Positions 36,192 through 51,731 of a stretch of 64,000 nucleotides of DNA are shown in pieces. Numbering within the stretch: the first letter of the stretch is position 1; each line of letters opens with the position of its first letter. The notes below the pieces were generated by a model that was given only the letters and a program-made list of their open reading frames with translations, searched no databases and was not told where the DNA came from. The position numbers and the translations under genes are program-made. This DNA is from an uncultured Agathobacter sp. Lineage in GTDB: Bacteria; Bacillota; Clostridia; Lachnospirales; Lachnospiraceae. The stretch spans positions 248,001 through 312,000 of the forward strand of contig CAKRCS010000001.1 of assembly GCA_934307695.1 (NCBI GenBank). Direction: 5' to 3'.

Positions 36192-36590
36192 TGCGTTAAA
36201 TTGCCATCGGAATGCAAAGGGAAGAAGTTGCCATGGTAAGTGCAAAATACCGGTGAAAAACAGAAGGAAATATGTTCGGATTTAACTTTTATATTAAGAG
36301 ATAATATAGTTGAAAAACAGATAAAGACAGACAACAGATAATAAAACATAAAAAAGGCAAACAAATGACAACAGAAATTGCAGACAAACACAAAAATGCA
36401 GGATGCATTTCAAAACACAGAAAAAATATTCAGAAAAAGTTCTTTACAAACAAGAAAAAAGCATGTAAGATAAAACCACTCTTTTTTATCTGATTTCTAC
36501 CGACAATCGTCGGGAGATTCCAATTTTTTATGAATTGAATAGAGCTATGCCCTTTTCCGGTTCCGCAGAAAGCGGGGAAAGGATATTAGT
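36192..36590. other. A-rich intergenic leader of the pilus-like operon
   Basis: About 400 bases without a convincing gene. The strand is unusually A-rich from 36240 to 36480. A likely promoter lies at 36443-36471 and a small hairpin CCGAC-AATC-GTCGG at 36500-36513, in what would be a 110-base untranslated leader. Confidence 0.6.
36443..36471 (+). promoter_or_regulatory. Probable promoter of the pilus-like operon
   Basis: TTTACA (36443-36448), 17 bases, TAAGAT (36466-36471). It is the best candidate upstream of the 14-kb unit; no internal terminator is visible until after the last gene. Confidence 0.5.
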
Positions 36591-36842
36591 ATGAAAGAAA
36601 CAATCGCACACATTTTAGAGGTAGTTGTAGTAGTTATCGCTTTATTTGCAGTTATTGCCATTATCACAATGATGACGCAGACCGGAAGGCGGGACGAGAC
36701 AGGAAAGCTGGTTGGCGCCGGAGTGATCACGCAGCAGATCGATTCTACCATCGATAAGGTATTTGAAAAGACCGCCGATGCGATCGAAGGCACTTCCCTA
36801 AAGGACGATGTAGAGGGAAATGGTACCATCGATGGACAGTAG
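36591..36842 (+). CDS. 83-residue single-span membrane protein, first gene of the pilus-like operon
   Basis: One hydrophobic segment (about residues 10-28, five Val in a row) near the N-terminus is followed by a polar, partly helical tail ending in an acidic stretch. This is a pilin-like layout, but the Gly-x4-Glu prepilin cleavage motif is absent before the hydrophobic part. AAAGGA lies upstream of the ATG. Its 3' end overlaps the ATPase gene by over 20 bases, so the two are translationally linked. I recognise no family; a structural subunit or assembly factor of the adjacent machine is likely by context. Confidence 0.75.
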   Translation: MKETIAHILEVVVVVIALFAVIAIITMMTQTGRRDETGKLVGAGVITQQIDSTIDKVFEKTADAIEGTSLKDDVEGNGTIDGQ

Positions 36843-37998
36843 AAGAAAAAGCGAATGGCAGCTTACCAGAGATATATTTGGCCCTCTCTGGCAATTTGTT
36901 GCGGATGATTCGGTAACGGATATTGACTGGGACGGCGATTCCCTTTGGATCGAGTATGCGGGCGGCAGGAAGGAATGCGTCTGTCAGGAGGGGATTGATG
37001 CCCGGTTTGTGGACAACTTTACGCAGTATGTAGCCAACCATGTCGCAAGACCGTTCAATCAGGTGGAGAATACGCTGTCTGCGGAGACGGAGACGCTGCG
37101 CATCACGGTTGTACATGAGTCGCTTGCCACAAGTGGGCGCTGTTTTTCCATCCGGAAGTCGATGCCGAAGCTGCGGTTTGGTGCATTGCAGGCAGTGGAG
37201 GAGGGCTACTGTCCGGAGGCGTTTTTACATTTTCTGGTAAATTGTGTCGCAATCCGCTGCAATTTTGCATTCTGTGGGGAGCCGGGACATGGCAAAACGG
37301 AATGTGCCAAATTCCTATCGACCTTCATTGCGCCCACGGACAAGGTGATCACCGTGGAGGATACACTGGAATGGCATTATAAGAAGATCAATCCCGGAAA
37401 GCGTGCAGATGAGATCAAGATCGGCTCGGAGGAAGAATACCCAAAGGCAATCAAGGTTGCACTGCGCTTAAATCCTACCTGGCTGATGCTTTCCGAGGCG
37501 AGATCGACAGAGGTGCAGTATCTGGTGGAGGGCTGGAGTACCGGAGTGCATGGAATGACGACCATCCACACAAGTGATGTGAGGAAAATCCCGGATCGCG
37601 TTGTCAATATGATGGGACAGGGAATCGAATCCGAGCGCATGGTCAATAACATCTATACCCATCTGGATCTGGGAATATTGCTGGAGCGCACAACAGACTC
37701 CAATGGAAGGATGCAGAGAAAAATTACGCAGGCAGCTATTTTTGAACGGCAGGGGGATCGGAATGTCTGCACCCTTCTGATGGAAAACGGGGTGTTTATG
37801 AAGTCTGCGATTCCGGAATCCATCCTCTTTCGGATGAAAAAAGCAGGAATACGGAATGCCTGCAGCTCTGCGCTCCTGCAGGAACGGTTTCGTCAGGAGA
37901 AAATGGGGAACTTTTACGGAATGGAGGAACAGGCAGGATGGGAGATTACATCAGGCTCTATAAGGGCAGTTGCGGAAGAAGTAAGCGGGATCTATTAA
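36820..37998 (+). CDS. Tad/CpaF-like (GspE-type) secretion ATPase
   Basis: Cytoplasmic motor ATPase of 392 residues for a type IV pilus or type II secretion-like machine. An N-terminal domain (VTDIDWDGDSLWIEYAGG, then RISI-like segments) is typical of CpaF/TadA. Walker A is GEPGHGKTE from residue 153, the Asp-box region lies around EDTLEWHY, Walker B LMLSEAR near 220-227, and the His-box GVHGMTTIHTSD near 244-255. It is somewhat shorter than usual TadA. Start choice between ATG 36820 and ATG 36832 is unsettled. It overlaps both neighbours, pointing to one operon. Confidence 0.88.
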   Translation: MVPSMDSRRKSEWQLTRDIFGPLWQFVADDSVTDIDWDGDSLWIEYAGGRKECVCQEGIDARFVDNFTQYVANHVARPFNQVENTLSAETETLRITVVHESLATSGRCFSIRKSMPKLRFGALQAVEEGYCPEAFLHFLVNCVAIRCNFAFCGEPGHGKTECAKFLSTFIAPTDKVITVEDTLEWHYKKINPGKRADEIKIGSEEEYPKAIKVALRLNPTWLMLSEARSTEVQYLVEGWSTGVHGMTTIHTSDVRKIPDRVVNMMGQGIESERMVNNIYTHLDLGILLERTTDSNGRMQRKITQAAIFERQGDRNVCTLLMENGVFMKSAIPESILFRMKKAGIRNACSSALLQERFRQEKMGNFYGMEEQAGWEITSGSIRAVAEEVSGIY

Positions 37999-39341
37999 AA
38001 GAAGAACATCTGGCAGAATGGCACGAAAAGGTCTATCTGCTGCCGGTTTTTATCGGAGGAAGCCTGTTATGCGTATGGCTGTTTCAACTGCGGCTTATCT
38101 ACATAGGCATTCTGCTGATAGGCGCGGTGGCGGCATCGGCTGCCATAGGGCGCGCCTGTCAGACGGAGGCGGCGGAGCAGCAGAAGTTTTCCGATGTCAA
38201 CAGCTATATGCAGCAGTTTATGAGCGCAATGGTCCTGCACCGGAGAATCGCAGCGGCACTGGGGGAGGTGTACATTACATTTCCTGAGGGAAGGATGCAT
38301 GACACGTTACAGGAGATGCTTTGGATGATCCGAAGGTCAGATGATCCGATCCGCGCAGAGAAGCAGGCGTTTTCTTACATGCAGGAGCAGTATCCGGAGG
38401 CACAGCTTCGCCTTGTCCACGATTTTGCCCTTAGCATAGAGAGCAGAGGAGGGGATTTTGCAGCAGAGATGGAGCTTTTGGGAAGCATGCGCCAAAGGCA
38501 CGAAAAGCGTGTGGAGCATTGCCAGAGCAACATGAAAGTAACCGCATATATGTCGGTACTTTTGTATGTTGTGATGATTTTTGTCTGCGTGCTGGTCCAG
38601 CGGATGATGCCCCGCCAGTTGTCTGTCCTCTCCATGACCTTATCCCAGGTCAGTGAGGTGACGATGGTTCTGGTGTTTTATTTTTTCCTGTATATGGTAA
38701 TTCGCAATACCGCAAAAGGATGGATGCGGCAGGAACGGCAGATGAGCGCCCAACGGGCAAAGAAGCTGTATGCCTATATTTACAAGTGGCGTCCGGGCGG
38801 CAGGGCAAGAACTACGGGGATTGGAAAATGGCTGTTTGGTCACAGGCTCGTCTACCGGATACGTTTGCACATCGCAAGGAAGGAGGTCTGCCGGATGGTG
38901 CCGAGATGGCTGTTTGACGTATGTCTTCTTATGCAAAAATACAATATCACGGTGTCCATCACGGAATCGCTTCGGACTGCACCTGCAATCTTAAGAAAAG
39001 AAATCCAGAAGCTGCTCGAACAGCTGCGTAGAGATCCTTCGGATGTAAAGGCGTATGCCCGGTTTTGTGAATGGTATGGGATTCCTGGGGTGACGCAGAC
39101 CATGCGGATGTTTATGGCGATGCAGAATGGAACGACAGGAGATACAAAGCTTCTGATGGAGCAGTTGATCGGGCACAACATGAATATGCTCGATGAAATG
39201 GACGAAAAGGAAGCCAATCTTTTGGACGCGGTCAATGTCAGATACCATATTTACCCGATGATACCGGGAGCTATTGTCATGGCGGGGTATCTGTTCAGTA
39301 TGGTCATGCGCATCTTTTCAACGATGTCGTCACTTATTTAG
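37938..39341 (+). CDS. Inner-membrane platform protein with two GspF/TadB-TadC-like halves
   Basis: The 467-residue membrane protein. After two N-terminal membrane segments (about residues 30-65) a cytoplasmic helical domain (about 70-205, with RRIAAALGEVYITFP and IESRGGDFAAEMELLG) is followed by two more segments. A second similar helical domain (about 320-435, KYNITVSITESLRTAP.. MQNGTTGDTKLLMEQL) and a last segment follow. This layout looks like TadB and TadC joined in one chain. It should anchor the ATPase and extrude subunits. The ATG lies inside the end of the ATPase gene behind GGAGG. The role is inferred from layout and context. Confidence 0.8.
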   Translation: MGDYIRLYKGSCGRSKRDLLKEEHLAEWHEKVYLLPVFIGGSLLCVWLFQLRLIYIGILLIGAVAASAAIGRACQTEAAEQQKFSDVNSYMQQFMSAMVLHRRIAAALGEVYITFPEGRMHDTLQEMLWMIRRSDDPIRAEKQAFSYMQEQYPEAQLRLVHDFALSIESRGGDFAAEMELLGSMRQRHEKRVEHCQSNMKVTAYMSVLLYVVMIFVCVLVQRMMPRQLSVLSMTLSQVSEVTMVLVFYFFLYMVIRNTAKGWMRQERQMSAQRAKKLYAYIYKWRPGGRARTTGIGKWLFGHRLVYRIRLHIARKEVCRMVPRWLFDVCLLMQKYNITVSITESLRTAPAILRKEIQKLLEQLRRDPSDVKAYARFCEWYGIPGVTQTMRMFMAMQNGTTGDTKLLMEQLIGHNMNMLDEMDEKEANLLDAVNVRYHIYPMIPGAIVMAGYLFSMVMRIFSTMSSLI

Positions 39342-39350
39342 GAGGTGCGG

Positions 39351-39692
39351 ATGGAAGCTATCTGGAAAGCAATACTTGGCGTTTTTATCAGCGCGATGAT
39401 CATTTTCTCCGGCGTAGCAATACTTGGTGCCAACAATGCGGCAGCGGAAGCGGAGCACTATCTGTATGCTGTTGCGGGCGAGATCAGTGCAGCTAATTTC
39501 GCGGAGGAAGTGCGCCTGCGAAAAATAGAAGAGGCAAAGGGCTATGACTATGCGCTCTCGGTAAAACTATCCGGGGATGCGGTTGAGGACGCGTTTTATA
39601 CGGGCTATGCGATCCTGACCATGGAATACCCGTATGATGTGCCGCTGATCGGGTTACATAGCGTGCAGCGAAAGCAGCTGATCGTGTATTAG
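39351..39692 (+). CDS. 113-residue membrane-anchored pilin-like protein
   Basis: An N-terminal hydrophobic segment (about residues 7-30) runs into a helix with AAAEAEHYLYAVAGEISAANF and then a small C-terminal beta domain. This is the shape of a minor pilin or pseudopilin, but no standard prepilin peptidase site is visible. GGAGGT precedes the ATG; a GTG six bases earlier lies within the ribosome site and is rejected. It lies 9 bases after the platform protein and within the operon. No family recognised. Confidence 0.75.
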   Translation: MEAIWKAILGVFISAMIIFSGVAILGANNAAAEAEHYLYAVAGEISAANFAEEVRLRKIEEAKGYDYALSVKLSGDAVEDAFYTGYAILTMEYPYDVPLIGLHSVQRKQLIVY

Positions 39693-39701
39693 GAGGATGC
39701 T

Positions 39702-39809
39702 ATGAAAAAATGGGTAGAAATGATCGGTGAGACCGTGTGGTATGTATTGATCTTTGGCGTGGCGTGTGGCGTGCTAGGGGAATGGTATGTACGCCTGACT
39801 GCTTATTGA
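39702..39809 (+). CDS. 35-residue membrane peptide of the pilus-like operon
   Basis: Tiny protein with one hydrophobic helix (about residues 12-26, VWYVLIFGVACGVLG) and aromatic flanks. AGGAGG lies 6 bases before the ATG and the gene sits 9 bases after its neighbour and 9 before the next, so the operon spacing supports it. No family recognised; perhaps an assembly subunit. Confidence 0.7.
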   Translation: MKKWVEMIGETVWYVLIFGVACGVLGEWYVRLTAY

Positions 39810-39818
39810 GGAGGAGAA

Positions 39819-39974
39819 ATGCAGTATACAGTAGAGGAAATCTTGGATTTGATCGCGGAAGCAATCGGGGCAATATGTTTGATCGTCCTTTTCCAGCAAT
39901 TTGTCATGGGAGGGATGGCTTGCTGCCTATCCCGGATGATCACGATTATGCTTACGCAGGTGTTAGGAGGCTGA
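39819..39974 (+). CDS. 51-residue hydrophobic peptide of the pilus-like operon
   Basis: The peptide starts with an acidic helix MQYTVEEILDLIAEAIG and continues as one or two hydrophobic stretches containing a CC pair. GAGGAG precedes the ATG. It stops one base before the TTG of the next gene. The compact spacing argues that it is translated. It could be a small pilin-like subunit; function is unassigned. Confidence 0.7.
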   Translation: MQYTVEEILDLIAEAIGAICLIVLFQQFVMGGMACCLSRMITIMLTQVLGG

Positions 39975-39975
39975 A

Positions 39976-40509
39976 TTGGAGCGGACGATTCGATTGGTTC
40001 TGGAAATGACTGTAACCGGGATCATGGTTGTGTTTTTACTGACGTATCTCCTACGGGGGGATATCCGGGGCAGAAGCGGTGTATGGGAGGGAATGCAGAC
40101 AATCGCAATTCCGGTTGCCGGAAACATGGATATGGAGTTTGGCAATACAGATGGAAATGGTGCCGGACAGATTCCTGAAGTTTTTCTGGAGGGGGGACAA
40201 TGTGTACCCAACCGGGAATATTTACTTTGTGAATTATTTCCCAATTCGCTGCAGCAAACGGTATATCTGAAGCTGGAGGAGGTGTGCATGGCACAAAAAC
40301 CGGTATTAGCCAGAGGAAATTTGGAAGAACTGTCGCAGGAGGAGAATCCTGCGGCGGCACTGTACGACAGTGCGACGGACACACTTTGGTTTACACGTCC
40401 GGGAACGTATCGGGTGAGCCTTATCGTGGGGACACAATATGGAAGAAAGCCGAGCCGCCGGGTCTTTATGACCGTTCCGGTAGTATCCGGCGAAGCACTG
40501 ATGGAATAG
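39976..40509 (+). CDS. 177-residue membrane-anchored protein with Ig-like end
   Basis: Starts with TTG behind AGGAGG (5-base gap), giving a short N-terminus, one membrane helix (about residues 7-27) and an extracytoplasmic region. The last 60 residues (TLWFTRPGTYRVSLIVGTQYG..RVFMTVPV) resemble an Ig-like or PKD strand pattern. This would suit an outward-facing minor subunit of the machine. No named family is recognised. Confidence 0.75.
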   Translation: MERTIRLVLEMTVTGIMVVFLLTYLLRGDIRGRSGVWEGMQTIAIPVAGNMDMEFGNTDGNGAGQIPEVFLEGGQCVPNREYLLCELFPNSLQQTVYLKLEEVCMAQKPVLARGNLEELSQEENPAAALYDSATDTLWFTRPGTYRVSLIVGTQYGRKPSRRVFMTVPVVSGEALME

Positions 40510-40520
40510 GGGGGAAGGCA

Positions 40521-41126
40521 ATGCGGAATATTGTTATGGGAGTTTGTGCGATCGGCTTCTTTTTATTGGTTCTGCTGGTCGGCGGAACAGTCTCCATGCG
40601 TCAGAAGCGTGAGACGGAGCTGGAGGCTGCGGTAAATCTTGCCATGGAACAGGCACTGCAAAGTGTTGTCTACGATGACGGGGACTCCCCGGAGGACGAT
40701 GAGAAGCTATGTGTGATGTTTGAGGAGCTTTTGATCGCCCAGCTATCGGCAAACGCAGCCTACCGCATCGACATTCTTGATGCCAGCGCGCAAAAAGGGC
40801 TGCTGAGTGCAACGGTGACGGAGCGCTATGCGCACACAAACGGAAGAAAGGGCTGCATAACGGTTCAAAAGACGGCAATCTGTGAGCAGACGGCAAAGAA
40901 AAATAAATATGGATACCGGACGCTTACCTTTTATGTGGGAGAACAGATCTTCCGCAGGTATGAGCTGGGTACAGGGAGTACATTGCCGGTACCCGGCACC
41001 CCGCAAGAGGAAGGCAGGATATTTTCCGGCTGGAGAAACCTTACAGATGGAAAGTTTTATCAGGCGCAGGAATTACAGGAGATGGTCTTAGATGAGGACA
41101 TGGATTTCTATGCGCAGTGGCAATGA
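40521..41126 (+). CDS. 201-residue membrane-anchored protein ending in an InlB repeat
   Basis: An N-terminal membrane helix (about residues 4-24) is followed by a helical region and a beta region. The last 55 residues form one InlB/Flg_new repeat: EQIFRRYELGTGSTLPVP, GRIFSGWRN, and DMDFYAQW. The same repeat type builds the two giant proteins encoded next, so this small pilin-like protein is a physical link between the machine and its probable clients. A G-rich GGGGAAGG site precedes the ATG; the longer frame upstream is out of operon logic. Confidence 0.85.
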   Translation: MRNIVMGVCAIGFFLLVLLVGGTVSMRQKRETELEAAVNLAMEQALQSVVYDDGDSPEDDEKLCVMFEELLIAQLSANAAYRIDILDASAQKGLLSATVTERYAHTNGRKGCITVQKTAICEQTAKKNKYGYRTLTFYVGEQIFRRYELGTGSTLPVPGTPQEEGRIFSGWRNLTDGKFYQAQELQEMVLDEDMDFYAQWQ

Positions 41127-41144
41127 GACAGAGAAGGGGGATAT

Positions 41145-44100
41145 ATGAGACATGTGAGACTATGGGTGGCAGCAGGATGGATACTGCTGTGTGTGTTGGG
41201 GATTGGAGGAATGGTATGCAATCAGAGGGTGCAGGCTGCCATAACAAACAGTGGCATAGTATCCGGTGTGCCGGCATACCGCTCGGCTTGCGGAACACCG
41301 GAGGATGTAAGTGCGGGCGGCTACGCGGATGCGGTCATTTACAACGACCGCGTATGTAACGGAAAGAGCAGTACATGGCAATTTAAAAATGGATATGTGT
41401 TTTGGTCAACGAGGGCGAAAGCTGCCGCGAACCAAAAGACGACGCTGTACCGTTCGATCGGGTGGGATATTACGTTTTCTGCGGATTTAAACGGAAATAA
41501 CCGGATCGATTCCGATGAGAAAATTACAATTTCTGTGGCAAGAACCATAAACGGCGCGTATCTTCCACAGATGAATTACTACTATATCAATTATCAGGAG
41601 AAAGAAACGGACGGACAGCTTTATAAGTACAGCCTGTATGCGATGTCATACGACCGGCTGCAGGAGCTTGCAGCCAACCATGAGGCGGCAGAGAAGGGCG
41701 GAAAAACACCTGTTACGACAGCAATATTTCATAATCCCAATGTCAATATTTCAATCGACGCCATTATGACGACCGTGGAACGCGATGCTTATGGAAATGA
41801 GACGTTAAACGGAGCAATCCGTACGGAGAACGGAACCGGAGCGTCGGCGGTAAGACAGGATGCGACCGGTTCTGTCACAACGAGCGGGACAGTCTACCAT
41901 TGCAACGATCCGAAGGATTACGGACAGCTTGTGGAGCGCTTTAATGAGGCGAGCATATCAACTTACAGAAACAGCGGAACAGTTCATAATTACAGACTAA
42001 AGCTGGAGTTTTATGTAGACAAAAAGATGTACGATGCCGACGGAAGTAACGGCTGGTCGATCCGCGAGGATAACGGGCAGATTTATTATAAAGGAAAGCC
42101 ATACACGCAGAGTATATCCCTATGGGAGACGACAAGGATTCCGGATCTGAAGGAGTTTGTGTCCATGGACGGATACCGTCTGACCGGCTCGTGGAGATGT
42201 GGGGATAGTGCGTGCTATGTGAATGAGCAGGAAATTTATCACACGACGTATCTGGCACAATATGCAGATTATCCAAGATACGTCTCCAACATTTTTGAGG
42301 GAAACGGAGTCCTGCGGCTGTATGCGGATTCTGCCGTGTCATGGAAGGAGAATGAGTACCGCATCGAGTATTATTCCAAAGCAAAAGAAAATCAGTCCTT
42401 TTATCAGAAGGTTGCAACGCAGATCTGCCAATACGGGCAGGAGTACCGGATCTATGACACCGGTAATACATCAGCACCGGATATCGATGGAGTGGAACTT
42501 TTGTATTGGACACAAGGTGTGGAGCCGGATGCAAAAAAGATAAGTCCGGGAACTAAATTTTCCGGCAGAGACTTTTCCGTAACAAAAGGGAATGATGGAA
42601 AAGTGATCAAGCTATATGCTGTGTGGGGCGTGCAGTCCTACACGATCACCTGCAAGGAGAACTGTCCGGTGGGGAAGAATGCATCCCAGTATTTCTACGA
42701 GATATATGGATTGGGATTTACGATGGATGCAACGCTTGCCGCGACAAAGACATCAACCGATCCGTTTTTCTGGAAGAGTCAGGGGAATCTGACCGACACG
42801 GCGAATCTGAATGTGCAGATGCCGAAGCAGGATGGGTATATATGGAACGGATTCTGGGACAAGAAGGTGAAACGGCAGTATATTACGCCCGATGGAAAAA
42901 TCCTGTTCGATTCCGCAAAGACTTTTGAGGCGGATACAACAATCTATGGGGACTGGCGGAAAAACTATACGCTCACTGTGATGTACCGGTTGGGAGATGC
43001 GGTCAGCATCCAGACAAATGAAAGCGGCTATGGAATGGATTCCAACGGTTTTTTAACGGTAAAGGGCAAGACGGTTACGAAGCAATATCTTGCCACAGAT
43101 ACGGTCACCGTGCAAAAAATCCCGGACTGCATCGAGCGTAGTGGATGCACGAGACCGTCAAAATGGCAGATTGAAGATACCGGAGAACTTGTCTTGGGCG
43201 GCGGGAGTTATTCCGCAAAGGTGCTTGCTAAGAAAGCGGGAGGTAATCTGGACAGGGAGAATGTCACGGCAATCCTACAACTGCCGTGGAGTGAATTTCC
43301 GTATTATGTTGATTATTATTTTAAGAATGCTTCGACCGGAAAGTATGAGATAAAAGCATCACAGCAGTGCAGGTATGGGAAAAACTACCGCTTCTATTCC
43401 GAACAGCAGGCGGAGGCGGTAAAGGCTCCGGCAGATAAAGTATTTAAGGGATGGAGCACGACAAAAGGAAGCGGCCGTGTCGATTATCCGGCAAAGACGG
43501 TGTTTTGCAATCTGGCAGCGAAGGAAAATCAGAGAGTCCGATTGTACGCAGTGTGGGGATCACTTACCGCGGAGATCCTGTTAAGTGGAAACTGCCCGGC
43601 AGATTCACAGAATCCGGTTGCGATGGGAAGCAACGGCATCCGCTATGTCATAGGAGAGGGCTTTATCCCGGAGGATGGAACACAGATTCCGCATAAGAAC
43701 TGTAAAATCCGCATACCAACCTGTGAGGGGTATGTCTTTACAGGCTTTTTTGATGCGCAAAAAGGTGGAACGCAGATGGTAGATCCGACAGGGGCGGTCA
43801 CAAGTGCCGTGTCGGTCGAAAAGCGCTACGGAACCTTCTATGCACAGTGGGAGCAGAAAACATACCGGATCACCTGTCATGCAAATGGCGGCAGATACGA
43901 AGCAAGCAGTTGGGGGAATGAACAGACCATCAGCCGGGCAGGGGTGATATATGGAAATTTCCTGCCGGCGATGATCGCTCCAAAAAGAAACGGATATTCG
44001 TTTGCCGGATACAGACGCAGTGGTGACGACACCGATAGTTTGTGGTACAACCGCTTTTTAAATTCCGGAAACCGGAGATATTGTGTGGCTTATGATGTGG

Positions 44101-44564
44101 AACTGTATGCCGAGTGGAAAGATAATATTGCTCCGAGTGGTACGATCCGGGCAAACGGAGGCAATAGCGCCGGAGCATGGGTGAACCGGGACATACAGCT
44201 TACGGTTTCCGGGAGTGATGCCGGAAGCGGGATCGTCAAAATGGAGCTGTTCTGTAAGCGGTATTTTGAGAGCAGCTACCGGTTGCTACGGATGTGGGAG
44301 ACTGCTCCGGTTCCGTTTTTTGAGGGAACGGTGAATGTGGATATGAACGGGATCAGCAGCTTTTACTGCGTGACATATGATGCCGCAGGGAATACCAATT
44401 ACCGTATAAGCGGCACTGCATCTGATTTTAGGGATACAAAGGCAACCGTTTTGTATGTGGACAAGATTGCACCACGGGCAACAACACCGAAGCTTGGTGA
44501 TGTACGCATCGGGGATACTTCGGTAAATGCGTCTGTATACGCATCGGATGATGTGCTTGAATGA
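41145..44564 (+). CDS. Giant secreted InlB-repeat (Listeria-Bacteroides repeat) protein
   Basis: The 1139-residue exported protein has a signal peptide of about 32 residues (hydrophobic core WVAAGWILLCVLGIGGMV, end near VQAA). An N-terminal module of about 290 residues is followed by a series of InlB/Flg_new repeats (about 330-1000; markers LYAVWG, GYIWNGFWD, FKGWSTT, YVFTGFFDA, LYAEWK). It ends with a bacterial Ig-like module (about 1010-1100) and a fragment of another that stops abruptly at ASDDVLE. No LPXTG or other wall anchor is seen. Such repeats occur in surface adhesins. It is the first of two giant proteins in the operon. Confidence 0.88.
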   Translation: MRHVRLWVAAGWILLCVLGIGGMVCNQRVQAAITNSGIVSGVPAYRSACGTPEDVSAGGYADAVIYNDRVCNGKSSTWQFKNGYVFWSTRAKAAANQKTTLYRSIGWDITFSADLNGNNRIDSDEKITISVARTINGAYLPQMNYYYINYQEKETDGQLYKYSLYAMSYDRLQELAANHEAAEKGGKTPVTTAIFHNPNVNISIDAIMTTVERDAYGNETLNGAIRTENGTGASAVRQDATGSVTTSGTVYHCNDPKDYGQLVERFNEASISTYRNSGTVHNYRLKLEFYVDKKMYDADGSNGWSIREDNGQIYYKGKPYTQSISLWETTRIPDLKEFVSMDGYRLTGSWRCGDSACYVNEQEIYHTTYLAQYADYPRYVSNIFEGNGVLRLYADSAVSWKENEYRIEYYSKAKENQSFYQKVATQICQYGQEYRIYDTGNTSAPDIDGVELLYWTQGVEPDAKKISPGTKFSGRDFSVTKGNDGKVIKLYAVWGVQSYTITCKENCPVGKNASQYFYEIYGLGFTMDATLAATKTSTDPFFWKSQGNLTDTANLNVQMPKQDGYIWNGFWDKKVKRQYITPDGKILFDSAKTFEADTTIYGDWRKNYTLTVMYRLGDAVSIQTNESGYGMDSNGFLTVKGKTVTKQYLATDTVTVQKIPDCIERSGCTRPSKWQIEDTGELVLGGGSYSAKVLAKKAGGNLDRENVTAILQLPWSEFPYYVDYYFKNASTGKYEIKASQQCRYGKNYRFYSEQQAEAVKAPADKVFKGWSTTKGSGRVDYPAKTVFCNLAAKENQRVRLYAVWGSLTAEILLSGNCPADSQNPVAMGSNGIRYVIGEGFIPEDGTQIPHKNCKIRIPTCEGYVFTGFFDAQKGGTQMVDPTGAVTSAVSVEKRYGTFYAQWEQKTYRITCHANGGRYEASSWGNEQTISRAGVIYGNFLPAMIAPKRNGYSFAGYRRSGDDTDSLWYNRFLNSGNRRYCVAYDVELYAEWKDNIAPSGTIRANGGNSAGAWVNRDIQLTVSGSDAGSGIVKMELFCKRYFESSYRLLRMWETAPVPFFEGTVNVDMNGISSFYCVTYDAAGNTNYRISGTASDFRDTKATVLYVDKIAPRATTPKLGDVRIGDTSVNASVYASDDVLE

Positions 44565-44575
44565 TGGAGGAATGT

Positions 44576-47500
44576 ATGACAAAAAGACAGAAGGGCAGAC
44601 ACATCGTGGTATGGGTGGTGCTTCTTGTATGCTTATGCGCAGGGGGTGTGTGTCTTGCAAGAATGCGGATCAGCAGTCCAATCCTGTATGACAGTGAACT
44701 GCCGCAGGATGAGATGCTTGATTTCCTGCAATGCGACCACGGGAGCAAAGTCTATCAGCAGGAAATCGATATGCTGTTAGAAATTACAGATATAAAAAGT
44801 ACAAAAAGTGCAGGAGAGGAAGCTGCACGAACGGAAGCGGCATCACAAAAGCGCGGGGAAGTGCAAAGCAATGAAGCAACGCAAAGAAATGAAGGAATAG
44901 AAGGTAGCGAGGCAATACAGCGGAATGAACCGGAGAATAGTGACAACAATTCTGAGGCTGCGCAGCCATCTGAACTGAGAAAATATATTGATGAACATAG
45001 TTCAACTATGGAAATGACGGTAGCGATCATTGATACAGGACTGCAGCTTGATGCATTTTCCCAACCGGAGCGGGTGATCGGGCTGCCGGAGAAGGTGCCG
45101 GAATACTGGAGCGGGTATGTGGCAGAAGAAATCTGTGACAGGAATGGTCATGGGACGCGGATGGCAGAGCTTGTAGCCAAAAATAACAACGCAAATGTCC
45201 GTATCCTTCCAATCCCGGCTGCGGATGAGAGCGGAAAGGCAACGGTACTTCAGGTGTGCAGCGCAATCCGGCTGGCAACGGAGCTTGAAGCGGATATTGT
45301 GAATCTGTCGATGAATACGTTGCAGTCGAAGCAGTCGGTACTCTTAGACGCGGAGATCGAGCGTGCGGTCAGCGCAGGGGTAATGGTGGTCGTATCGGCG
45401 GGAAACCGAAGCATGGATACGTCTAAATGTGCGCCGGCAGACAGCGAAGGCGCGATCGTTGTGAGTGCGGCGGATGCTTATGGAGATTTTGCGGAATATT
45501 CCAACTATGGTAAGACGGTGGATTACTGTGCACCGGGCAGCTACGGGGAGTACGCAGGCACTTCCTATGCCGCTGCGTATGTGACAGGAGTGCTTGCGGA
45601 TGCAATGAGCAGGGGACTTTGCCCGGAGGATCTGCAAGCATACCTGTATGAGAAGGGGGAACTCGGAAGGGATGATTGCTATGGACTTGGGCTGATCTCT
45701 CTGGAAGTCCCGAAAGACAAAAATCTGATCAAGGATATCTTCGGAACGGATGAATGGGAAGAAACAGAGGCTGTCGCGAAGAATCCGATTGACATTCAGA
45801 CGATGACGAATGCGCAGATAAATGCTTGGGTTGCAGTAACGGATCTGGCGGAGGTGGGACAGTACATAAGCCAGCTGCCGGAGAATAAGCGCATGCAGCT
45901 ATTAGAACGCGATACGGTGTTAAAGCAGAAGGTATGGTTTTGTGAAAAAACGCTGTCCGGCGAGGAGGCTGCTTCCGGTGAGGACATTTCTTTGACCTCG
46001 CAGAAGGAATATTTCTATTACGAAAAGTGTCTGGAGCTTTACGAGGAGGAAGCTGAGATTTTAAGGACATCTGCACAATACCTGCACAAGACCGGGCATT
46101 TTAAGCTTGAGTTCGTGGATGAAACCGGTTCAGGACTGTCAACGGTGTATGAGATCCATGCGCGCGTGTGCTTAAAGGGAAAGAAGCTGGACGGTTCTGC
46201 TCCGGAGAATGGAGCGGCAGCAAACCGGAACATATTTACTCTGGGAAGCGGGGAGAACCAGATAACCGTGTGGTCAACGGTTGCTTCCGGCAACAGAGAT
46301 ACGATGCATTTGCGATGGATAAGGGAGAACGGAGCGTATGCATATTTCAGGGCGGATGACGCCGGTGGAGCAGGACGTATTTTCGTGCCGAACCTTCTTG
46401 TGATCAACCCGGCATATACACTTATGTATGCAAAGGATTCAACACATGCACATGGTGGCAGCAACTGTGCGGGAAGAAGTAACTTTTTCAGATATTCGGA
46501 ATCGAATCAGCTTGCAGCTTCATACAGTGCCGCAAGAACATTCTTTCGTCCGCGGAAATTCAACATGTCGACAGAGCCGGTGGCACAGAATGTTTCTCCA
46601 CAGATCAATGCCTCCCACATGAGCCTTTCTGATACCTCGCGAAAGCTTTCCTCTACAAGCACGGTCTGTCGAATGACAATATGCTTAAATAATCCGGTGA
46701 CAACCCTAAAGGTAGATCCAAACGGAGAAAAATGGGCGGGAAAGCAGGAACTGACAACGCTGCAGGTAGTCAATACCAGGCAATATGAGCTGGGAAAAAC
46801 GACTGTGACCAATTACAGCGCAACATTTTACGGAGGCGGGGATGTCTTAGATCCGGTTGCGGATCAGACCGTCATATCAAACAAAGCCTTTGACCATTGG
46901 GAATTAAACTGTCAGGCAAACGGAAGCGGAAAAGTAAAAGACGGAGATTCCTATATGAGTGGAACAACGTTTGTGGCGGGAGCTGCCGAGTATGATAAGG
47001 ATTCGGAAAAGGCTGCAACGACAGGACAAAAGGTGACGGCAAAGGCAATCTTCTCCGGAAGTATGGCAATCACATTCCCGGCTGCCCCGTATAGGAATGG
47101 GTATACGTTCGAGGGCTGGTACACCGGGGCAGTACCGGGCGGAGGTGTCACTGCGTGTACAAAGGAGAACGCGGGAACGGCAACGACCGTACTGGATTCG
47201 GATCAGGAGTTCCATGCAAGGTGGTCAAAAAAATCATATACCGTCTCGTTTTACAATGGAGAAGATCTGCTTTCAGCCAAGGAATATGAATACCGGACGA
47301 ATATCGATCTATCCGTAAGCGAGCGGATCGATGATGGGATAGGCGTGTCCTATGTGCAGAGGATCCATGGACAGGAGACGATCACGCTATCCAGGGGAGC
47401 ATATATTTTCGTTGGCTGGGCATATGCACCGGGCGGTCCGGTGGTTTCCGGGGTGACGGTTCCGGCAAATAACGATCTGCGGCTGTATGCGGTGTGGTCG

Positions 47501-50392
47501 ATGCCAACCTCCGGAATGCGGCAGGTGGTGCTAAAGCTGAAAAGCGGGGACAGTACCGGTGGCGGAGCAATCCCGACAGAAGGAAAGACACCGCAGATCA
47601 ACCTGACCTTGGGGCTTAAGGCATACCTATATGAAATCAATGTCCCACTGACTGTTGCACCGGCAGGCGTTGTGGCAGCGGCGGACGGCAGCTCCTATGC
47701 GGAGGATAATGCAGGAAACAAGACACTGCTTATGACGGATCACGCGGAGGTAGAGCTGTCGGATCGATACACATTTCTCTACCAGTTCTATGTATATGAT
47801 GCGGCGACAGGACAGTGGAACTATCTGGAAAATAAGGATCGGCAGGAGTGCGTCGATCTGTTCCCGGATGAAGCCTATACCTATACATACCGGCTGCCGG
47901 AACAGGTAAGCATACCGGAGGGGTATGCCTACCATCATGCAGCCTACGACCAGACGGAGGTTGCGCTGCCATACGAACTGTCGGTTATTGCCTCGCGGTC
48001 AGCGGAGAAACGGCTTTTTGTGGTCGGAATATTCTTTTATCCGCGAAGCTGCACCGTCACCTATATGGCTTGTGGCGGACAGATCCTCCCGGAGGGGCTG
48101 GGTGACAGCTTTACGCTGTCGGAGGATCGCTCCAGCGCAAAGCAGCAGATATTACTCGGAGCACCGCTTGGAAGCCTGCCGGGCGTGGAAATGGGAGATT
48201 TTTATAATTGCAACGGCTTTTTTGACCGGGAACACGGAGGACGACAGGTGCAATCCAGCGATATTGTGCAGGGAGATATGACCGTGTATGCGCAGTGGGA
48301 GGCAAAGTCCGGGCTTGTCCGCTACGATGCCGGAACCAACCGGGGAACGATAGCAGGACAGGAGTTCCTTGATACCGAGGTCAAATACCGGTCAGCGATC
48401 CCGCATCAGGAATACACGGCCAAGCGGCAGGGATATCAGTTCCTGGGCTGGTCAAAGCAGGCACAGGCGCTTCCAGAGAAAAAACAGGCACAGGGGCTTC
48501 CAATGGATAAGCCGGTCGAAGTGATTCTGGGGACAGAGGAGATCATTCTGGACGCGCAGAGCGTGACACTCTATGCACAATTTCAAAGAGAGCTGCAGGT
48601 GGTATTTCATCAGTGGAATGGACAGGATTACGGCCTTCAGGAGGACGGAAAGGAACCTGTCCTATATAACTGTGAGAAGGAAATAGAGATCATTTCCCCA
48701 TATATCGAGGCGTATGACGGCTGGACACCGCTTGGCTGGAACAGCGAGGCAAAAGTGTCGGAGCAATTCACGGTAGGGGAAGGTGTCTGTTTTACGGTGG
48801 AAGATGATGAGGACTACTATGCACTGTACTACCGGGATGTAACGGTACATTATGATACACGGCTGGCAGAAACCGTGGGAGAAAATGAGGTATTCTTTGA
48901 CGAGACCGATGTTAAAAAGGCATATCATAGTACAAGCGGGTTGGCAGATGCTGCGGCGCAGTTTGTAATCAAACCGGGACCTAAACAGCCCTATTATACA
49001 TTTTTGTATTGGATGGGAGATGACGGCAGGCGGTACGAGCCGGGCGAGGAGTATGCCTCGGTGCGGGACTTAAACCTGCATGCCGTGTGGAGTGCGAATA
49101 CGGCAACTATTATATACGATGCATCAAGCAACGGCGGAACCGTGCAGGGACAGTCTTTGGTAAATGTGGCAATCGCTTACCGGGATCAGATTCCGACCGC
49201 AAACGACTGCTATACCGCTTACAAGGAAAATTATGAGTTTGTGGGGTGGAATACAAAGAAGAATGCGAAAACGGCGATGACGGAGCCAATCTATGTTGAT
49301 GAAAAAATAATGGATGATGGTGTCCTGACGTTGTATGCCATTTATCGGAGAACGCTTACAGCAGAATTTTATCAGCAGGGAGAGCCTGATCCACAGAAGG
49401 TGGTCGGTATTTTGTACAACAACGATGCAAAGATCACGATTCAGGCTCCACGGGTGATTCCGTATGACGGTTGGGAAGAACTTGGCTGGAGCCGGGAAAA
49501 AGCAGCAGTTACAAGAGCTGAACTGTGTTCACTTATGAATTATGAGCTGTCAGAGGATGTAACCTTTTACGCAGTCTTTCAAAAGCGCGTTAAGCTGGAG
49601 TATCAGACGCAGCTATATGGAGTCGAAGTAGAACCGTGTTACGGTTACACCTATCATAGCAGTATATCACCGAAGCATGAGCAGGATCTTCCTGCGAGCT
49701 TTCTGGCAGCGGGTATGGGGCAGCAGCCGGGAAGAAGCTTTTTACATTGGAAGGACGAGCGGGGAAAGGCACAAAGACCGGGAGATATGATTTCCATATT
49801 CAAGGATGAGGTGCTGCTTGCAGAATGGGATGAGTATCCGCAGATCAAAGCACTGGACCGCTACTTTACCTTGGAGCAGGCAACGGATGCACAGGGGCGG
49901 TATATCAATGAACAAAGCCTGCTGGATAAAAGGTATGTCCGGGCAACAGACCGGGAGGATGATGACGAGACGCTTGTTGTGGAGCTGGTTGATTTTCCGG
50001 CGGCTGATTTTATGAGCCTAAAGGGAAATGCAAGTCTGCTCGTGCAGTTTTCGGTCACGGACAGCTACGGAAACCGGGCGGTGGCGTATGCAACGGTTCA
50101 TGTGACAGACACAAGGGAAAAACGGGAAGGTGTTACGAGAACGATCCGGTTTATTTCCCCGGACTACTATAAAAATGCGAAAGGGTATGTCCCACAGGAA
50201 CAGGGTGGACTTCATGAAGAATCTCTGTGGAGAAGTGACGTCGAATATGCGCATGTACTTGAGAATGCGATGGAGCAGGTGGGGGCAAAGAAAAAGTGCA
50301 TAAGGAGTTCACATACATTCTCCATGCAGGAAATCCGGCTGCGAAAGGAACAGCTATATAGCAGGGATAGAGAACAAAGCGTCACAAAGTGA
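44576..50392 (+). CDS. Giant membrane-anchored subtilase with InlB repeats
   Basis: The protein has 1938 residues. It begins with one membrane helix (about 8-28), a polar Glu/Gln/Asn/Ser-rich linker (about 75-135), then a compact S8 domain (145-385). The catalytic triad is complete: Asp153 (AIIDTG), His192 (NGHGTRMA), Ser330 (GTSYAAAY), with oxyanion Asn277. A 350-residue unknown region follows, then at least eight InlB/Flg_new repeats (about 740-1755; markers EGWYTGA, FVGWAYA, FLGWSKQ, LGWNSEA, FVGWNTKK, LHWKDE) and a cadherin/DUF5011-like module. GGAGG 5 bases before this ATG decides the start. The last codons and stop lie in a dispersed repeat. No sortase signal. It may process the neighbouring surface proteins. 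Confidence 0.9.
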   Translation: MTKRQKGRHIVVWVVLLVCLCAGGVCLARMRISSPILYDSELPQDEMLDFLQCDHGSKVYQQEIDMLLEITDIKSTKSAGEEAARTEAASQKRGEVQSNEATQRNEGIEGSEAIQRNEPENSDNNSEAAQPSELRKYIDEHSSTMEMTVAIIDTGLQLDAFSQPERVIGLPEKVPEYWSGYVAEEICDRNGHGTRMAELVAKNNNANVRILPIPAADESGKATVLQVCSAIRLATELEADIVNLSMNTLQSKQSVLLDAEIERAVSAGVMVVVSAGNRSMDTSKCAPADSEGAIVVSAADAYGDFAEYSNYGKTVDYCAPGSYGEYAGTSYAAAYVTGVLADAMSRGLCPEDLQAYLYEKGELGRDDCYGLGLISLEVPKDKNLIKDIFGTDEWEETEAVAKNPIDIQTMTNAQINAWVAVTDLAEVGQYISQLPENKRMQLLERDTVLKQKVWFCEKTLSGEEAASGEDISLTSQKEYFYYEKCLELYEEEAEILRTSAQYLHKTGHFKLEFVDETGSGLSTVYEIHARVCLKGKKLDGSAPENGAAANRNIFTLGSGENQITVWSTVASGNRDTMHLRWIRENGAYAYFRADDAGGAGRIFVPNLLVINPAYTLMYAKDSTHAHGGSNCAGRSNFFRYSESNQLAASYSAARTFFRPRKFNMSTEPVAQNVSPQINASHMSLSDTSRKLSSTSTVCRMTICLNNPVTTLKVDPNGEKWAGKQELTTLQVVNTRQYELGKTTVTNYSATFYGGGDVLDPVADQTVISNKAFDHWELNCQANGSGKVKDGDSYMSGTTFVAGAAEYDKDSEKAATTGQKVTAKAIFSGSMAITFPAAPYRNGYTFEGWYTGAVPGGGVTACTKENAGTATTVLDSDQEFHARWSKKSYTVSFYNGEDLLSAKEYEYRTNIDLSVSERIDDGIGVSYVQRIHGQETITLSRGAYIFVGWAYAPGGPVVSGVTVPANNDLRLYAVWSMPTSGMRQVVLKLKSGDSTGGGAIPTEGKTPQINLTLGLKAYLYEINVPLTVAPAGVVAAADGSSYAEDNAGNKTLLMTDHAEVELSDRYTFLYQFYVYDAATGQWNYLENKDRQECVDLFPDEAYTYTYRLPEQVSIPEGYAYHHAAYDQTEVALPYELSVIASRSAEKRLFVVGIFFYPRSCTVTYMACGGQILPEGLGDSFTLSEDRSSAKQQILLGAPLGSLPGVEMGDFYNCNGFFDREHGGRQVQSSDIVQGDMTVYAQWEAKSGLVRYDAGTNRGTIAGQEFLDTEVKYRSAIPHQEYTAKRQGYQFLGWSKQAQALPEKKQAQGLPMDKPVEVILGTEEIILDAQSVTLYAQFQRELQVVFHQWNGQDYGLQEDGKEPVLYNCEKEIEIISPYIEAYDGWTPLGWNSEAKVSEQFTVGEGVCFTVEDDEDYYALYYRDVTVHYDTRLAETVGENEVFFDETDVKKAYHSTSGLADAAAQFVIKPGPKQPYYTFLYWMGDDGRRYEPGEEYASVRDLNLHAVWSANTATIIYDASSNGGTVQGQSLVNVAIAYRDQIPTANDCYTAYKENYEFVGWNTKKNAKTAMTEPIYVDEKIMDDGVLTLYAIYRRTLTAEFYQQGEPDPQKVVGILYNNDAKITIQAPRVIPYDGWEELGWSREKAAVTRAELCSLMNYELSEDVTFYAVFQKRVKLEYQTQLYGVEVEPCYGYTYHSSISPKHEQDLPASFLAAGMGQQPGRSFLHWKDERGKAQRPGDMISIFKDEVLLAEWDEYPQIKALDRYFTLEQATDAQGRYINEQSLLDKRYVRATDREDDDETLVVELVDFPAADFMSLKGNASLLVQFSVTDSYGNRAVAYATVHVTDTREKREGVTRTIRFISPDYYKNAKGYVPQEQGGLHEESLWRSDVEYAHVLENAMEQVGAKKKCIRSSHTFSMQEIRLRKEQLYSRDREQSVTK

Positions 50393-50422
50393 TTCTTTGC
50401 GCATCTGTGTGGGAACGCAAGT
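50371..50422 (+). repeat. Dispersed hairpin repeat, copy 2, overlapping the subtilase stop codon
   Basis: Homologous to the inverse of 28281-28332: ACAAAGCGTCAC-AAA-GTGATTCTTTG with one mismatch in the stem, then GTGTGGGAACGCAAGT. The TGA of the giant subtilase is part of the stem (50390-50392), so the final residues SVTK are encoded by the repeat. Confidence 0.8.
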
Positions 50423-50452
50423 ATAAAAAGACCCGGATCAAAAATCCGGGTC
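50421..50452 (-). terminator. Terminator of the guaB-hlyC/corC unit
   Basis: ACCCGGAT / ATCCGGGT (50431-50451) with a 5-base loop. The T run (TTTTTAT) follows the stem on the minus strand, so it ends the minus-strand unit; it may also block convergent reading from the plus side. Confidence 0.85.
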
Positions 50453-50459
50453 ATAAAGA

Positions 50460-51731
50460 CTATTCTTCCGGCTTCGGGGGAGCAGGAAGCTTGATATAGA
50501 CACGCTCAATACGATTCTTGTCAACCTTGTCGATCTTTAGGAGAACTCCGTTTTCGGTAAGAATGATCTCATTCTTTTCCGGAAGATGATCCAGATGATC
50601 GAGACAGAAGCCACTGATCGTATCGTAGTTCTCAGAAGTAAATTCCACGCCGAGGGCATCGCTGACATCGTCCAGGCTGGTGGAGCCGAGTACCATATAC
50701 TCACGATCACTCAGCTTGGTGATCGCATCCACCTCGTCGGTATCGTACTCATCGCGGATCTCTCCAACAATCTCCTCCAGCAGATCCTCCAATGTGATAA
50801 GTCCGGCAGTAGCACCGTATTCATCTAAGACGATCGCAAGTGAGATGGAGTTTTTACGCATCTCAATAAACAGATCGGCGGTATTCTTATGCTCGTATGT
50901 AAAATACGGCTTGCGGAGAATATCCCGGATGGAAAAGTTCTCGATATCCTCGCAGAGCAGAAGATCCTTCATATTGAGGATTCCGATGATGTTGTCCGTG
51001 CTGTCCTCATATACAGGAAGGCGTGTGAACTTATCCTCGCGGAAGATCGAAATGATCTCCTCGTAAGATGCGTCAACAGAAACGAAGGTCATATCGATAC
51101 GGGGAACCATGATCTCCTTTGCCTCTGAATCACCAAAATCGAACAGATTGTGGATCATGTCGCGCTCCTCGTGCTCGATGACGCCGGTTTCCTGACTGAC
51201 ATCAACGATGGTGCGAAGCTCTTCCTCGGTCATCAGATTATCCTTGGCATTGGGATCAACCCTAAGCAGAAAAAGGATGCCAAGGGAAAGCTTGTTGATA
51301 ATGAAAATGACCGGTGTGAGCAGCTTCATCAGGAATTCGATGATCGTTGCGTAGGATAGTGCCATCTGGTCAGCATTGAGGGTTGCTTTTGTCTTTGGTG
51401 TTATCTCACCAAAAAGAAGCACCAGAAGTGTTAAAACTCCGGTGGCGATTCCTGCACCTACGCTTCCAAAGTGTTTGATCGCAAGAGAAGTTGCAATCGA
51501 GGAAGCGGACAGATTGACAATGTTATTGCCGATCAGGATTGCGGAAAGCATTTTGCCGGAGTTATCCGTAACGCGAAGCACACTGTCTGCCTTTTTGTTG
51601 CCGGCTTCGGACAGGGTACGCATTCGTATTTTGTTGACGGTTGTAAGTGCTGTCTCCGCAGACGAAAAGAATGCGGAGAGCAGCAATAAGATAATTAAGC
51701 TTATAATCTGAACTATGTCACTTGTGTCCAA
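50460..51731 (-). CDS. HlyC/CorC-family membrane protein (DUF21-CBS-CorC_HlyC)
   Basis: The 423-residue membrane protein has four hydrophobic segments in the N-terminal DUF21/CNNM domain (residues 1-190). A CBS pair (about 200-325, including MVPRIDMTFVSVDASY and LPVYEDSTDNIIGILNMKDLL) and a C-terminal CorC_HlyC domain (about 340-420) follow. The family is linked to Mg2+/Co2+ export or protection, despite the old haemolysin name. The start is TTG, with GAGGT 7 bases before it. It begins 20 bases after guaB and is likely co-transcribed. Confidence 0.92.
   Translation of the reverse strand: MDTSDIVQIISLIILLLLSAFFSSAETALTTVNKIRMRTLSEAGNKKADSVLRVTDNSGKMLSAILIGNNIVNLSASSIATSLAIKHFGSVGAGIATGVLTLLVLLFGEITPKTKATLNADQMALSYATIIEFLMKLLTPVIFIINKLSLGILFLLRVDPNAKDNLMTEEELRTIVDVSQETGVIEHEERDMIHNLFDFGDSEAKEIMVPRIDMTFVSVDASYEEIISIFREDKFTRLPVYEDSTDNIIGILNMKDLLLCEDIENFSIRDILRKPYFTYEHKNTADLFIEMRKNSISLAIVLDEYGATAGLITLEDLLEEIVGEIRDEYDTDEVDAITKLSDREYMVLGSTSLDDVSDALGVEFTSENYDTISGFCLDHLDHLPEKNEIILTENGVLLKIDKVDKNRIERVYIKLPAPPKPEE

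Follow-up and report, generated by a model that had tools for sequence, protein, structure and literature searches.

A candidate leaderless type-4 filament operon of Lachnospiraceae that may display a giant secreted protein

A 64,000-nucleotide stretch of DNA from an uncultured Agathobacter sp. (assembly GCA_934307695.1, contig CAKRCS010000001.1, positions 248,001 to 312,000; hereafter the window) carries an operon of ten open reading frames (ORFs) on one strand (window 36591-50392), named here in order P1, ATPase, platform, g4, P2, P3, P4, g8, g9 and g10 (Table 1). Judged from sequence, the operon may encode the machinery of a type-4 filament that is leaderless, derives from Tad and displays one giant secreted protein at its tip, a reading to which a probability of roughly one half is assigned. 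According to this reading the CpaF/TadA-like ATPase would drive a single platform of the GspF/PilC type, the two being recognised by homology and fold, and P1 together with P2-P4 would be pulled out of the membrane to build the filament. The sequence of P1 has no leader; the pilins are made from their own start codon in what is, for other pilins, the shape left by cleavage, and a prepilin peptidase would be unneeded. The tip would be formed and capped by g4 and g8, whose N-termini have no E-Y-G start. The giant, which as read from its sequence has an N-terminal export signal of its own but neither a sortase motif nor a later membrane span, would be fixed to the tip through its C-terminal domain (CTD), probably on g8, as suggested by natural g8-giant fusions and by gene co-occurrence. 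Its variable N-terminal part, a subtilase here and a beta-helix, LRR or ChW part elsewhere, would work outside the cell, beyond the cell wall.

The operon is genuine and widespread, and its genes occur together beyond chance. With the ATPase as query 970 relatives were retrieved, and a scan of species genomes gave at least 20 loci whose titles name Lachnospiraceae or one of its genera in nearly every case; the nearest relative, locus L001 of genome G001, is an Agathobacter sp. metagenome-assembled genome with an 84% identical ATPase. A sample of 298 genomes from the family of G001 contained 41 with the ATPase at E<=1e-60. Across 67 ATPase loci, the window included (66 unique ones, L004 and L080 being the same DNA), homologues of the platform and of g4 were found in 67/67 and of g8 in 61/67, and four of the six g8 misses lie on contigs that stop early.

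Pfam and NCBIfam scans took in nine of the ten operon ORFs (P2 was left out). The ATPase matches T2SSE (PF00437) above the cut-off (E 1e-14) and CpaF structures of the PDB (E 3.4e-17), in agreement with the GspE/CpaF-type ATPase of a first-pass annotation of this DNA. Its NCBIfam score is 79.3 bits for TadA (TIGR03819; the cut-off of 373 is not reached) and 37 bits for ComGA. A tree was built from 12 of the 28 rows of alignment A1 (27 of 120 listed ATPase relatives) and the ATPases of L147-L171 after removal of duplicates; with group labels set by the A1 profile score, this ATPase group stands apart (support 95/98) from a further 15 PF00437 ATPases, which come from eight of the same genomes. 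The platform sequence by itself has no Pfam match; its predicted model, taken alone, matches the GspF/PilC cytoplasmic domain (alignment A3 covers 51 of 64 platforms). Of the two-lobed GspF-like platform proposed previously, the GspF likeness holds; the model has two helix sets flanking membrane-length helices, and a separate match for the second set was not obtained. Two traits of type-4 filaments, a PilB/TadA/GspE-type ATPase and a GspF/PilC-type platform, are both present.

It is the CTD, and neither the InlB repeats nor the subtilase, that marks the giant client. The giants downstream of g8 share the end R-F-I-[SN] ... G-G-L-x-E-x-S-x-W ... Y, in many cases with a G-I-G-N stretch after it. 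Alignment A2 holds 29 of the 30 tails picked by a regular expression (L068 was left out as a false match), and no Pfam family was matched by more than one of these 29 tails. In the family set, a profile of the CTD was found in 35 of 298 genomes, namely in 34/41 ATPase-positive and 1/257 ATPase-negative ones (Fisher p 1.2e-36); the latter is G307 (L135), with its CTD on a 4.5-kb contig. A class set contained the ATPase in 4/293 genomes and the CTD in the same four, two of which are not part of the family set, and an order set contained the ATPase in 16/343 and the CTD in eight, all within those 16; the three sets overlap. Among the five ATPase genomes newly seen in the order set, the profile was passed by G863 alone, a CTD-like end was seen by eye in G839, G847 and G860, and none was seen by eye in G851. 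Likewise, the profile-negative family-set genomes G094 (L093) and G165 (L095) have a CTD-like end by eye, and L066, L067, L094, L097 and L083 have none in the ORFs viewed. The sensitivity of the profile is partly circular since it was built from loci of the family set; the scarcity of the CTD in ATPase-free genomes and the cases in trans are free of that circularity. Where an operon has no adjoining giant, a CTD protein is often encoded elsewhere: in G269 it lies on the same contig at a distance of about 1.26 Mb, and in G118, G042, G308, G135 and G268 on a different contig; within the stretches fetched, neither ATPase nor platform lies near these trans-encoded proteins. The dedicated machine-client pair suggested by the first-pass annotation is supported by the distribution of the CTD, and relatives that mostly lack the giants, which would have pointed to two unrelated units, were not found.

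Regarding the fold of the CTD, it was modelled only within a longer chain, and the fold matches listed for the modelled giant tail of L089 concern the immunoglobulin (Ig) part only. A comparison of the P4 profile with the giants' Ig/CTD profile by hhalign was weak (probability 54.9). Locus L143 encodes a 241-aa CTD protein (6848-7573, minus strand; E 7.4e-12) with no room for a large payload, and no ATPase or platform was found in the 14-kb stretch that contains it.

The part of the giants that precedes the CTD is diverse. Among the 34 chosen giants of alignment A5, two of them from the window, 12 Pfam families match at E<=0.001, including Flg_new in 14 giants, beta-helix in 7, Peptidase_S8 in 5, ChW in 4, Flg_new_2 in 3 and LRR_5 in 1. 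The subtilisin triad noted earlier in one giant is indeed intact in g10; however, since Peptidase_S8 occurs in few giants and the payloads vary, the subtilase is, by domain content, one payload among several, borne on the client itself, and a role as maturase or releaser is unsupported. The matches of g8 (0.0023) and g9 (0.078) to the InlB-type repeat family Flg_new stay under the curated cut-off. InlB repeats may serve as stalk-like modules. That the repeat of g8 acts as a client-recognition code was considered and rejected: InlB repeats were counted, with a home-made profile of low sensitivity, in 6/24 giants beside a long g8 vs 3/9 beside a short one. In 29 of 31 CTD giants an N-terminal hydrophobic stretch was found and in 0/31 a later membrane span. 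As annotated before, g9 and g10 have no LPxTG-type motif; the C-terminal LPxTG and membrane span of sortase-anchored proteins of the InlB/MSCRAMM type are both missing. L071, which covers more of the L001 genome, encodes a 1896-aa version of g10 and a 1150-aa counterpart of g9. In the window and in L071 a g9-type giant without CTD precedes the CTD giant, and a similar pair is present in L003 (14296-16515).

The giants are tied physically to g8 by natural fusions. In G081 (L057) a single 921-aa chain consists of a pilin-like N-terminus, the g8 core, InlB repeats, an Ig domain and a CTD-like end; its first 230 residues match 53/59 other g8 proteins at E<=1e-3, and g8 of the window at 1.6e-17. 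A database search with this g8 part, confined to giant-length proteins, returned two further versions that share this end, P0122 (69% identical) and P0123 (63% identical). A separate CTD protein is encoded on a different contig of G081. The fusions are the best clue to where the separate giants dock, which is probably g8. An hhalign match between g8 and the giants' tails (probability 96.9) was set aside, because it stems from the fused L057 sequence among the aligned g8 proteins.

These data bear on an alternative related to type II secretion, in which the operon would encode an endopilus whose short piston pushes the Sec-exported giant through the wall and releases it, the CTD being a secretion signal. 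The GspF-like platform fold, giants with N-terminal signals and without an anchor, and clients encoded in trans are in line with such a system. However, there is usually one client per system, and three natural fusions join a client to the membrane-anchored g8, both of which argue for a bound part and not for a released product. This explanation is the strongest of the competitors, and still an unlikely one.

In the relatives a 50-77-aa protein with the consensus M-K-x-I-x-x-E-Y-G-x-A-I-I is encoded upstream of the ATPase, and in many of the 28 loci viewed two or three further short proteins with a like start lie between platform and g8. P1 was found by the E-Y-G pattern in 44/67 loci, giving 41 distinct sequences; the pattern used (E/D/Q-Y/F/L-G/S/A within the first residues) is biased toward leaderless forms. 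Eighteen of the 23 pattern-negative loci, including the window and L071, encode a short protein with a membrane helix near the N-terminus and an altered motif; the other five have no P1 candidate, L007, L020 and L082 among them having little upstream DNA. For 31 of the 41 distinct P1 there is no in-frame start codon back to the preceding stop, and the other ten are extendable in at least one copy, by stretches apparently unrelated to each other. The P1 start of the window is the first ATG/GTG/TTG following a stop codon. Moreover, 36 of the 37 aligned P1 with the motif have no G or A five residues before the acidic residue, the exception being L061 with an A. A class III signal peptide, i.e., a leader ending in G or A, was accordingly not found on the P1 family, as far as P1 starts are predicted correctly. 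In L005 and L076 two identical copies of P1 stand in tandem upstream of the ATPase.

It may also be that no filament is formed and that the ATPase, the platform and the small single-span proteins constitute a membrane complex by which the pair of g8 and giant is inserted or anchored at the cell surface. This would fit several small proteins of 35-60 aa that are nearly devoid of an extracellular domain and have no recognised processing site, as well as the weakness of the pilin family matches: the P1 relatives match Flp_Fap of Pfam weakly (E 0.01 in 2/38). However, the relatives' P1-P4 have an E-Y-G-led hydrophobic helix like that of mature Flp, for which E at +5 and Y at +6 are described (PMC3244431, available text), and ATPase, platform and pilin are the generic parts of type-4 filaments (PMC6668835, available text). 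A complex without filament therefore seems improbable, slightly more so than the endopilus.

The leaderless filament has to be weighed against the presence of prepilin peptidases in the cell. None was found among the nine ORFs scanned, so that the previously reported absence is correct for these; it does not hold for the genome, as PF01478 occurs elsewhere in 53/53 related genomes checked. This finding weighs against the proposed filament: a genome-wide lack of prepilin peptidase is ruled out, and independence from the enzyme can only be inferred. In the 41 ATPase-positive genomes no peptidase lies near the operon among the matches listed, which are on another contig instead; in G269, G248, G130 and G100 the peptidase shares the contig with the operon at a distance of hundreds of kilobases. 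In many genomes two prepilin peptidases are encoded about 7 kb apart. An ordinary Tad pilus, whose pilins are cut at an unusual site by another of the genome's prepilin peptidases, would be compatible with these data, with the A at the -1 place in the P1 of L061, and with peptidases that can serve several systems (PMC6668835, available text). Against it stand the other 36 aligned P1, the 31 P1 without an upstream start, the split of the ATPases into two groups, and an internal control: in separate Tad loci of the same genomes (G269, G118 and G122) Flp has a leader whose last residue is G, with E at +5, and prepilin peptidases are encoded in the same stretch. The same leader scan gave no Flp candidate in the Tad locus of G001. 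The Flp-like pilins of the separate Tad loci L172, L174 and L175 have a leader and no Tyr at +6. An ordinary Tad pilus is thus regarded as quite improbable. Finally, the version of the first-pass annotation, in which the machine serves InlB-repeat proteins and the subtilase matures or releases them, is largely refuted by the payload diversity and by the failure of the g8 repeat to predict one in the giant, despite InlB-type repeats in g8 and g10 and the intact triad, and has only a very small chance of being correct.

Table 1. Features of the operon and its surroundings, in window coordinates.
Feature	Position	Strand	Description
Promoter-like match	36443..36471	+	weak; TTTACA-17-TAAGAT, upstream of P1
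P1	36591..36842	+	83-aa leaderless pilin-like protein, proposed major subunit; hydrophobic helix near N-terminus; family alignment A6
ATPase	36832..37998	+	CpaF/TadA-like, 388 aa
Platform	37938..39341	+	GspF/PilC type, single chain, 467 aa
g4	39351..39692	+	113 aa, single-span, minor-pilin-like; homologue in 67/67 loci
P2	39702..39809	+	35-aa single-span mini-pilin; AGGAGG site upstream; counterparts in relatives
P3	39819..39974	+	51-aa single-span mini-pilin
P4	39976..40509	+	177-aa pilin-like, extracellular domain, TTG start; PKD_4 at E 0.089 only
g8	40521..41126	+	201-aa pilin-like, one InlB-type repeat at end; proposed tip subunit
g9	41145..44564	+	1139-aa secreted giant without CTD
g10	44561..50392	+	1943-aa secreted giant client
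Subtilase domain of g10	45014..45652	+	residues 152-364; Peptidase_S8 (PF00082) E 4.8e-25; triad D158/H197/S334
Best InlB-type repeat of g10	49106..49339	+	residues 1516-1593; Flg_new (PF09479) E 4.5e-20
Ig-like domain of g10	49832..50137	+	directly before CTD; alignment A7; fold of relative L089 resembles bacterial Ig domains
CTD of g10	50138..50389	+	RFI...GGL..S.W..EY; alignment A2; proposed docking signal
Terminator-like hairpin	50430..50452		between operon and convergent CorC-like gene

Neighbouring ORFs overlap by 4-61 bp or are separated by 1-18 bp, which agrees with the tight spacing annotated before for nine genes; the number of ORFs is ten. No terminator inside the operon was annotated before either: the scan gave 17 terminator-like matches, about as many as the 14.4 expected by chance, and those on the plus strand within the operon all lie inside the coding sequence of the ATPase, g9 or g10. 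Promoter-like sites in the scan numbered 10 vs 22.9 expected by chance, making the match upstream of P1 a weak one. A predicted hairpin (window 36549-36592) spans the ribosome-binding site of P1 and may regulate its translation; a hairpin is also predicted upstream of P1 in L071. Riboswitch control was dropped, as Rfam gave no match at the gathering threshold in the window, one chance-level match at a relaxed threshold, and tRNAs alone in the loci of seven relatives. A CorC/DUF21-like gene, located by motif search at window 50460-51731, adjoins the operon in 11/67 loci, which suggests an old common location.

As a summary, the operon might represent a class of type-4 filaments without prepilin processing, built from mature-form Flp-like pilins and ending in a g8 tip that holds an exchangeable giant via a new docking CTD, and thereby a sortase-free way of display beyond the monoderm wall; this wider proposal is tentative and held with somewhat less than even confidence. 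Cleavage of prepilins counts as a defining step in the making of type-4 filaments, and this rule would become testable with a widespread lineage whose pilins have no leader. Lachnospiraceae are common gut commensals about whose surface display little is known; throughout the family, the CTD would reveal which protein each machine presents at the surface. With the subtilase version, a bacterial fibre would end in a protease.

In the open-licence PMC literature, as far as its text was available, no description of this system was found. Among the closest known systems is the Tad/Flp pilus, with which the operon shares the TadA/CpaF-like ATPase and tiny pilins with an E-Y motif like that of mature Flp; it differs by the lack of a leader on P1 and by a single platform gene instead of separate TadB and TadC. 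In the nine ORFs scanned there is no Pfam or NCBIfam match to TadV, TadZ, RcpC, secretin, Flp or TadE/F, in line with the TadZ, secretin and classical Flp reported missing earlier, and the relatives of g4 and g8 gave no TadE/F match. The operon is not classed as a Tad pilus because TadV, TadZ, a split platform and a leader-bearing Flp are all missing and the TadA cut-off is not reached. Imam et al. (2011; PMC3244431) described Clostridial tad-like loci which are likewise Gram-positive and tadA-like and have no apparent prepilin signal motif, yet contain tadV, tadZ and rcpC; leaderless E-Y-G pilins, a giant client and the CTD are not described in the available text. The Kil Tad pilus of Myxococcus (PMC12075869) is also a Tad-family filament with exchangeable minor-pilin tip complexes, whereas prepilin peptidase sites are predicted in the minor pilins of its tip and the available text describes no giant client that docks by a shared domain. 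The Com pilus resembles the operon as a small monoderm machine of an ATPase, one platform and several pilins (PMC10191384, available text); however, the ATPase is nearer to TadA than to ComGA, and the operon has no peptidase among the ORFs scanned and no leader on P1. Tip complexes capped by a subunit without Glu5 are described in the available text of the same source, as are the PilC/PilY1 tips of type IVa pili and the modular pilins of S. sanguinis. Both of these are leader-bearing and peptidase-processed, and PilY1 is not among the 12 Pfam families matching the 34 giants. In function, the proposed display resembles both, as well as the exchangeable Kil tips: the PilC/PilY1 tip is similarly a large modular protein borne by minor pilins, and the adhesive domains grafted onto the S. 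sanguinis pilins are comparable to the g8-giant fusions.
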